Assembly (NCBI RefSeq): GCF_001598215.1
Contig: NZ_BCXJ01000002.1
Coordinates: forward strand, 434,001-498,000
DNA length: 64,000 bases
Direction: 5' to 3'
DNA from: Shouchella clausii
Lineage (GTDB): Bacteria > Bacillota > Bacilli > Bacillales > Bacillaceae_D
In this document: one piece after another, positions 37,463-38,640 of the stretch
How positions within the stretch are numbered: the first letter of the stretch is position 1
Layout: each line of letters starts with the position of its first letter
Notes under the pieces: generated by a model
Database searches by the model: none
What the model saw: only the letters and a program-made list of their open reading frames with translations
Told to the model about the DNA's origin: nothing
Position numbers and translations under genes: made by a program

Positions 37463-38299
37463 ATGATGGTGTTGTCAACGATTTATCGCGCCTTAACGAT
37501 CGCCGGAACCGATCCTACAGGAGGAGCTGGCATCCAAGCCGATCTCAAGACTTTTCAAGAATTAGAAGTGTATGGAATGAGTGTGATTACCTCTTTAGTG
37601 GCGCAAAATACGACAGGTGTACGGGCCATCCACCACGTGCCTCTTGAATTTATCGACCAACAATTCCAAGCGGTTGTCGATGATATTTATCCAAGCGCTA
37701 TTAAAACCGGCATGATCGCGCTCCCAGAAATGATGGAACTTCTACAACAACAGCTAAATTCCCACAAAAACGTCCCTTATGTTTGCGACCCAGTGATGAT
37801 GGCCAAAAACGGCGACCCACTGCTAGAAAAGCATGTACGCGCTAAGCTTCGAGAGTCACTTGTGCCTTTAGCAACGATTGTGACGCCTAATATTGCAGAA
37901 GCTGAAGATTTAATTGACATGAAAATTGATGATGTTGACGATATGGAAAAAGCAGCCATACGGATTGTCAAAGAATTAGGGGCACAAAGCGTTGTTGTGA
38001 AAGGGGGAAGTTTAACAGGCGATGCGGTTGATGTGTTTTACAGTAAAGAGACCGGATTGTTTAAACTTGATGCGCCCCGTACGGATACAAAACATACACA
38101 TGGGACAGGCTGTACCTTCTCAGCGGCTATTTGTGCACAATTGGCTAAAGGCATAGGGCTATTGAGTGCAGTCCAAAAAGCAAAAGTTTTTACAGCAGAT
38201 GCCATCACATGGTCTTTGCAGATCGGGAATGGTTATGGCCCGACCAACCATTGGGGTCATCGACTCAATGGGCTACCAGGTAAAAACGCTAGCCAATAA
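37463..38299 (+). CDS. thiD: Hydroxymethylpyrimidine/phosphomethylpyrimidine kinase
   Basis: A ~278-residue ribokinase-fold kinase that phosphorylates HMP and HMP-P for thiamin synthesis. Substrate loop: ALTIAGTDPTGGAGIQADLKTF; QNTTGVRAIHHVP; PVMMAKNGDPLL; and the anion hole DTKHTHGTGCTFSAAI. ATG (37463), ATG (37466), GTG (37469) and TTG (37472) follow each other; GAAAGG is nearest the first, so the later GTG may be the true start. Controlled by the upstream TPP riboswitch. The 3' end overlaps the convergent WYL-like gene by 11 bases. Confidence 0.94.
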   Translation: MMVLSTIYRALTIAGTDPTGGAGIQADLKTFQELEVYGMSVITSLVAQNTTGVRAIHHVPLEFIDQQFQAVVDDIYPSAIKTGMIALPEMMELLQQQLNSHKNVPYVCDPVMMAKNGDPLLEKHVRAKLRESLVPLATIVTPNIAEAEDLIDMKIDDVDDMEKAAIRIVKELGAQSVVVKGGSLTGDAVDVFYSKETGLFKLDAPRTDTKHTHGTGCTFSAAICAQLAKGIGLLSAVQKAKVFTADAITWSLQIGNGYGPTNHWGHRLNGLPGKNASQ

Positions 38300-38519
38300 G
38301 GGAACGATTCCCACGTTTATTTGTCGCCCAGGCGCATGACAGGATATGGTCGAGTGCGAATGCTCTGTACGCATTTTTTAAATGGCAATAACAAAAAGCA
38401 TGCGTCTCGGTAACGGTGTATACCGTAACTTCCCTTTGCGTTAACTTTTTATTTTTTGCTTCATAGATGAGTTCTACCCGTCCATGCTCAGTAGCAGCCC
38501 TGTTTAATAACCGGATCAT
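38289..38519 (-). CDS. Small WYL-like protein under LexA/SOS-type control
   Basis: A 76-residue protein, MIRLLNRAATEHGRVELIYEAKNKKLTQREVTVY..., that looks like a stand-alone, shortened WYL domain. It has a beta-rich core with LIYEAK, a QREV strand, AFCYCHLKNAYRAFALDHIL and no helix-turn-helix. WYL domains bind nucleic acid or nucleotide ligands and regulate defence and DNA-damage genes. ATG 38519 has GGAG upstream; a GTG at 38528 is in frame but too close to it. The promoter carries a LexA box in its spacer, so DNA damage should induce it. The function is not known; it might instead be a distant YolD-like protein. Confidence 0.7.
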   Translation of the reverse strand: MIRLLNRAATEHGRVELIYEAKNKKLTQREVTVYTVTETHAFCYCHLKNAYRAFALDHILSCAWATNKRGNRSLIG

Positions 38520-38543
38520 ATCGGTCACACTCCTTTTAGTTTC

Positions 38544-38572
38544 ATTATAATGAGCGAACGAATGTTCGTCAA
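38544..38572 (-). promoter_or_regulatory. sigma-A promoter of the WYL-like gene
   Basis: On the minus strand TTGACG (38572-38567), a 17-base spacer, TATAAT (38549-38544), 24 bases upstream of the ATG. This is one of the best sigma-A promoters in the window. Confidence 0.85.
38555..38568. promoter_or_regulatory. LexA (SOS, Cheo) box
   Basis: CGAACGAATGTTCG fits the Bacillus consensus CGAACRNRYGTTYG/C at every position and occupies the spacer between -35 and -10. A weaker second copy, AGAATATTTGTTCG (38581-38594, 12 of 14 on the other strand), lies just upstream of -35. Confidence 0.85.
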
Positions 38573-38604
38573 TAGAAATAAGAATATTTGTTCGCTAAAG
38601 TTCT

Positions 38605-38640
38605 CCCGCATCTTTAATGAAAAGAATGCGGGCTTTCTGT
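38605..38640 (+). terminator. Hairpin beyond the WYL-like promoter
   Basis: CCCGCAT (38605-38611) pairs with ATGCGGG (38626-38632), followed by CTTTCTGTTTT. It could end plus-strand transcripts reading through from thiD. Confidence 0.55.

Follow-up and report, generated by a model that had tools for sequence, protein, structure and literature searches.

What might a single WYL domain, carrying no DNA-binding part of its own, be doing under the control of LexA? The question is raised by a gene for a 76-residue protein, here called mini-WYL, in Shouchella clausii, on a stretch of 64,000 nucleotides (nt) that we refer to as the window (contig NZ_BCXJ01000002.1, positions 434,001 to 498,000; coordinates below count from its first letter). 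An earlier note on this DNA had described the gene as having a TTGACG-17-TATAAT promoter with its spacer filled by a full match to the SOS consensus, and had proposed a damage-response factor able to bind single-stranded DNA (ssDNA) and modulate another protein. Our analysis confirms the observation and supports the interpretation, and it adds partners that the note had missed, namely YolD as a neighbour, Y-family polymerases and free LexA DNA-binding domains. SOS regulation of mini-WYL is strongly supported by the evidence set out below, and we give an even chance to the gene encoding a LexA-repressed, ssDNA-binding accessory factor of the translesion polymerase/YolD module. The gene and its control elements are as follows.

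38289..38519, minus strand: mini-WYL coding sequence, 76 amino acids and stop, ATG start; supported by Pfam, structure model and codon-position bias
38530..38537, minus strand: ribosome-binding site AAAAGGAG, read from the sequence
38544..38549, minus strand: -10 hexamer TATAAT, read from the sequence
38555..38568, minus strand: LexA (SOS) box 1, CGAACATTCGTTCG, a pattern match conserved in the genus and family
38567..38572, minus strand: -35 hexamer TTGACG, 17 nt from the -10; TTGACGAAC is kept in relatives L003-L006
38581..38594, minus strand: weak LexA box 2, CGAACAAATATTCT, 2 mismatches, 26 base pairs (bp) upstream of box 1

Both hexamers are present at the spacing first described, and the claim that the box fills the spacer was nearly exact: box 1 covers 12 of the 17 spacer bases and takes in the final two of the -35 as well. 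Against the consensus CGAACRNRYGTTYG it has 0 mismatches on the plus strand and 1 on the minus strand, and the 12/14 second copy that had been reported upstream is box 2. Uniqueness of the perfect match across the genome, together with conservation in the family, rules out a chance box: CGAACNNNNGTTCG occurs at a single site in the 4,657,378-base genome, which is box 1, against 16 sites for a reversed-pattern control, and within the genus TTGACGAACNNNNGTTC is retained in L003-L006 though the flanks differ and protein identity is 59-96%. Matches at 2 mismatches number 31 in the window against a shuffle mean of 17.6, so the weak box 2 by itself carries little weight.

The rest of the genome provides the setting for this box. 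Sites with one mismatch number 86 genome-wide against 343 for the control pattern, and among the 29 that were inspected 16 lie inside frames of at least 100 codons. One-mismatch boxes precede a Y-family polymerase (L062), yolD (L074), a gyrB/parE-type gene (L077) and a sigma-factor-like gene (L078), and looser boxes precede lexA (L104) and a second yolD (L082). Since these regulon genes carry such boxes, the genome is predicted to have an ordinary LexA regulon of the matching box type. We also considered paired boxes as a mark special to mini-WYL and rejected the idea, since in this genome pairs of boxes stand at lexA, yolD and Y-polymerase genes as well. At the sigma-factor-like locus (G000:C3:69386-69428; L078 1187 and 1216) two one-mismatch boxes lie 29 bp apart, and the gene behind them encodes a 192-residue sigma-70-like factor (L078 1306-1884, plus strand; PF08281, E 6.8e-11), possibly an SOS-controlled sigma factor in Shouchella.

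Small relatives (about 60-100 residues) turned up in 46 of the 60 related genomes and, at E 1e-6, in 221 of 398 genomes sampled from the class and in 90 of 146 genera, though the counts of 46/60 and 221/398 include some WYL domains of longer proteins. For the upstream regions we began with 120 frames and excluded four long ones, three with a start-calling fault (L039, L115, L151) and one longer WYL protein (L055); the remaining 116 gave 109 distinct rows, and 108 once L093, which has no upstream DNA, was set aside. Two of the 109 are doubtful, L054 because a stop interrupts it and L099 because its start was called on the far side of stops. The earlier note had named the lack of an SOS box before orthologues as a refuting result, and this did not occur: 90 of the 108 have a box with no more than 2 mismatches in the 130 bp upstream, against 3.3% of shuffles. 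The best box had 0 mismatches in 5 relatives, 1 in 55, 2 in 30 and more in 18. Half of these 18 sit directly behind a small LexA-like helix-turn-helix (HTH) gene that is itself preceded by boxes. The others include L054, as well as L123 and L127, where 2-mismatch boxes occur only 196-377 bp upstream; L022, L046, L112, L130, L131 and L143 have no box under the same rule. A further 60 loci, chosen mostly by rank order from class-wide matches that had no locus yet, after the box rule had been fixed, gave a box in 47 against 4.5% of 1,932 control windows from the same loci. Simple inheritance of the box among close relatives was weighed too: the rows span many genomes and phages but are mutually related, so these contrasts are large without being independent trials, and binomial values computed from them exaggerate the support. 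From the 90 of 108 and 47 of 60, mini-WYL is, as judged from upstream sequence, a family of SOS-boxed genes across Bacilli.

The arrangement of the boxes differs between the genus and the family. Relatives with two boxes space them 23-32 bp apart in 34 of 39 cases, and in 50 of 90 the proximal box has a -10-like hexamer behind it (31 of them at 2 nt) against 25% in shuffles; in Shouchella the -10 follows at 5 nt. TTGA stands immediately 5′ of the box, as it does in Shouchella, in only 8 of the 90, and the spacer layout therefore reads as a feature of the genus and not of the family. A wider phylum sample gave matches in 30 of 398 genomes at E 1e-8, and outside Bacilli these were for the most part WYL domains within longer frames. 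None of five stand-alone relatives from one non-Bacilli family (L156, L157, L158, L161, L162) has a box of at most 2 mismatches, so that the SOS link, as far as could be seen, is confined to Bacilli. All five carry a CTAARACTAGTTC-like stretch at -127 to -154.

The protein fits the earlier description of a mini WYL-like domain without an HTH. PF13280 (WYL) matches at E 6.7e-7, with 29.7 bits against a cut-off of 21.8 (one relative, L228, falls slightly under the cut-off at 19.7 bits), a Pfam scan of the 76 residues found no HTH, and the model shows a single domain. The AlphaFold2 model, built from 18 sequences, has a pLDDT (predicted local distance difference test) of 88.8; a single helix is joined to five strands, and the chain becomes loose from residue 69 on. 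This confident model predicts the bare Sm-like SH3 barrel of WYL domains, so that the structure unrelated to WYL which the earlier note would have taken as refuting did not appear. Its top structural matches, taken from the VIA list, are mostly WYL proteins: BrxR (10.3), PafBC (10.1), CapW with ssDNA (9.7) and DriD with ssDNA (8.7). A designed SH3 barrel (9.9) and Sm and Hfq chains (8-9) score close to these, so the fold alone cannot settle the family. The latter matches bring in a reading of mini-WYL as an Sm/Hfq-like ring, a general RNA or ssDNA chaperone in damage with neither a polymerase nor an HTH partner, which we find improbable.

The closeness of BrxR and CapW raises another alternative, that mini-WYL is an anti-phage or prophage-control gene, a CapW/BrxR-like WYL sensor whose SOS box answers phage-induced damage. 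The WYL models of PADLOC match it (E 5.1e-9) and relatives are found in prophages and phages, but the PADLOC hits involve generic WYL models only, and the recurrent neighbours are repair and SOS genes, although no search for defence genes among the neighbours was made. We regard this reading as very unlikely. The PafBC, DriD and CapW type of WYL regulator is in any case a different design: these proteins and BrxR have their own winged HTH (wHTH) and WCX, whereas the single-domain, 76-residue mini-WYL has neither, and has a LexA box of its own. A match to PHROG 6785 (E 7.5e-11) leads to a 396-position family of unknown function.

In sequence, the nearest solved-structure entries are the C-terminal WYL domains of Pif1 (DdPif1, SsPif1, TePif1), with best profile matches of E 1.5e-9 (8bnv) and 1e-7 (8bns). 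The Pif1 domain is fused to a helicase and mini-WYL is free-standing. The TePif1 WYL domain is reported to be an accessory ssDNA-binding module, and the crystallised Pif1 constructs were without the WYL domain, so that the Pif1 WYL is only modelled (PMC9964779). WYL domains are described as ssDNA sensors (PMC11804915). In that profile alignment the Pif1 ssDNA arginines R464, R491, R495, R498 and R501 (PMC9964779) align to R29, K48, R52, A55 and H58 of mini-WYL, and R181, R204, R208, R211 and R214 of PafB (PMC11804915) fall on the same five positions, with Y196 on Y44; the PafB correspondence is our own, by spacing. Across the family, the residue is basic at R29 in 109 of 109 relatives, at K48 in 105 of 108, at R52 in 108 of 108, at the A55 position in 72 of 108 and at the H58 position in 9 of 108, while Y or F is present at position 44 in 104 of 108 and C45 in 107 of 108. 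The first three positions and the aromatic residue are thus firmly kept, the fourth is variable and the fifth mostly lost, and the pair equivalent to R211/R214, which was essential in PafB (PMC11804915), is not firmly kept. Mini-WYL thus retains much of the basic groove that holds ssDNA in the WYL domains of PafB, DriD and Pif1, and most likely binds ssDNA at stalled forks.

Neighbouring genes indicate what such a protein might work with. In 114 loci, with flanks of unequal length, the 1.5 kb on either side held YolD in 24, a Y-family polymerase in 4, either of these in 27 and LexA-like DNA-binding genes at 11 loci. The 60 further loci, searched to 2.5 kb, gave counts of 12 for YolD, 4 for the polymerase, 14 for either and 5 for a small winged HTH. 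The YolD background, 99 occurrences in 247 Mb of related genomes, would predict about 0.2%. On viral contigs YolD is present at 12 of 16 loci, in 8 of these directly downstream, adjoining or overlapping. The complete set, the operon of a Pol V-like mutasome (UvrX/YqjW with YolD), is present in L228, where mini-WYL is followed with a 4-bp overlap by a Y-family polymerase (PF00817, E 6e-30; UvrX-like in our reading) and then YolD (PF08863, E 3.9e-13). Judged by position, L225 is laid out alike, while L219 has mini-WYL and the polymerase. In phage AP45 of Aeribacillus (L233 957-1438), mini-WYL overlaps a downstream 89-residue gene that has no Pfam family and is marginally YolD-like.

YolD is described as a predicted SH3-like barrel of the WYL-like superfamily and a partner of the UvrX/YqjW polymerases (PMC6511836, PMC4012209), and loss of YqjX, a YolD protein, was of slight consequence only (PMC6511836). 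YolD/YqjX (PF08863) is likewise a small SOS barrel protein. Membership of mini-WYL in its family was rejected, with no PF08863 match and an hhalign profile probability of 1.5%; YolD has an N-terminal half that mini-WYL lacks, and the two are separate genes of the same operon. The YolD lead in the earlier note held for neighbourhood; kinship found no support in the sequence comparison.

At 27 of 114 and 14 of 60 loci mini-WYL lies near YolD, a Y-family polymerase or both, and its likely role is therefore that of a small accessory subunit that binds DNA within the SOS translesion machinery. LexA cleaves itself in response to DNA damage. In the accessory-factor scheme, which for its repression step draws on sequence and known LexA biology, LexA on box 1 would cover the -35 and spacer and block RNA polymerase, and upon damage LexA self-cleavage would turn on mini-WYL together with yolD and the polymerase. 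The bare barrel, having kept much of the basic groove, would then bind ssDNA at a fork or gap and help to position or retain the YolD-polymerase machinery at that site. The Shouchella locus itself has no adjacent Y-family polymerase/YolD operon, and the translesion parts are dispersed in this genome; both yolD copies and a Y-family polymerase gene have LexA boxes, and through these shared boxes they and mini-WYL would be co-induced. The partner, the induction and any effect on mutagenesis would follow from this scheme, and modulation of another protein, as the earlier note had it, is suggested by the conserved residues and gene neighbours.

The LexA-like neighbours point to the strongest rival, which the cassettes make plausible: a split transcription factor in which mini-WYL is the ssDNA-sensing half and a small winged-HTH partner, in several relatives a protease-less LexA DNA-binding domain, the other half. 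The 11 LexA-like neighbours among the 114 loci comprise ten small HTH genes and one complete lexA, and the five HTH genes among the 60 further loci comprise two that are LexA-like (L175, L199) and three of another winged-HTH type (L181, L193, L216). Five small partners that were tested are LexA_DNA_bind (PF01726) without the protease part, namely L142 (E 4.2e-29), the B. subtilis plasmid pNIB353_1 (2.7e-20), L175 (1.2e-20), L011 (4.7e-19) and L102 (2.2e-14), and both gene orders occur; a sixth, in a P. larvae phage (L073), is MarR-like and under the Pfam cut-off. The free-standing LexA domain is a partner gene and not mini-WYL itself. On a FastTree tree of 167 rows, a weak one with about 70 columns, the 15 HTH-paired rows amount to 13 changes and the 41 YolD/polymerase rows to 23, and so many changes indicate, on sequence grounds, that partner pairing is often gained or lost. 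Against the split factor, no HTH gene adjoins mini-WYL in Shouchella or in most relatives, and several pairs come from records of prophages, phages or plasmids (L088, L099, L102, L073, L230). In Shouchella the partner would have to be encoded elsewhere or be LexA itself, tuned as an SOS feedback arm. We hold the split factor possible, if well short of even. It shares the ssDNA-binding step with the accessory-factor reading.

Several observations on these cassettes stand apart. Orphan LexA-like genes of about 65-84 residues without the S24 protease adjoin mini-WYL in L011, L102, L142, L175, L199 and L230. Boxes precede the HTH/mini-WYL pair wherever they were sought, a search that did not extend to the region upstream of the L199 HTH. 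L102 carries a LexA-type HTH/mini-WYL pair that is transcribed away from a polymerase-YolD pair, and boxes lie in the stretch that separates the two. The complete lexA is in L021 (1489-2378), tail to tail with mini-WYL, with yneB-like recombinase coding beyond.

Another view would take mini-WYL as a movable SOS ssDNA-sensing module, a second, RecA-independent channel in the LexA network of Bacilli. A protease-less LexA DNA-binding domain with mini-WYL would form a split regulator that reads SOS boxes and answers ssDNA directly, not via RecA-stimulated cleavage; in a polymerase-YolD operon, or alone, mini-WYL would couple the ssDNA signal to the mutagenic polymerase or LexA. We consider this view doubtful.

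WYL ssDNA sensors run LexA-free damage responses in Caulobacter and mycobacteria. The same domain, as a single barrel, is here a conserved apparent LexA target in Bacilli, beside translesion genes and orphan LexA domains, and mini-WYL would thereby tie together two damage-response systems usually seen as alternatives. Public records either leave relatives unlabelled or call them a hypothetical protein, a transcriptional regulator or a WYL domain-containing protein. We found no description of an SOS-controlled stand-alone WYL protein in the open-licence literature, though subscription papers could hold one; the domain and the regulon are familiar, but neither the bare LexA-boxed form nor its set of partners seems to have been described. 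As a part of the bacterial damage response mini-WYL appears to be widespread and yet unstudied, and it offers a concrete small protein with which to test how the YolD/polymerase machinery reaches DNA.

At the Shouchella locus the gene stands alone without an operon partner. An alternative GTG start at 38528 would give 79 residues, but it is only 1 nt from the ribosome-binding site, compared with 10 nt for the ATG, and we therefore prefer the 76-residue ATG form. The third codon position takes 14 of 19 base changes against L032 and 45 of 69 against L033, and an identical protein (100%) is present in Shouchella tritolerans. The frame reads as a genuine coding sequence under purifying selection, and the third-position bias and conservation rule out an artefact. 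Its 3′ end shares 11 bp with the 3′ end of a thiD-like open reading frame (37463-38299, plus strand), and a BCCT-type transporter gene on the opposite strand begins about 275 bp past box 2, both names being assigned by our reading of the sequence. Just upstream of the SOS boxes, positions 38605-38632 of the plus strand read as a hairpin, CCCGCAT...ATGCGGG, with CTTTCTGTTTT after it, perhaps a terminator for plus-strand transcription running past thiD.
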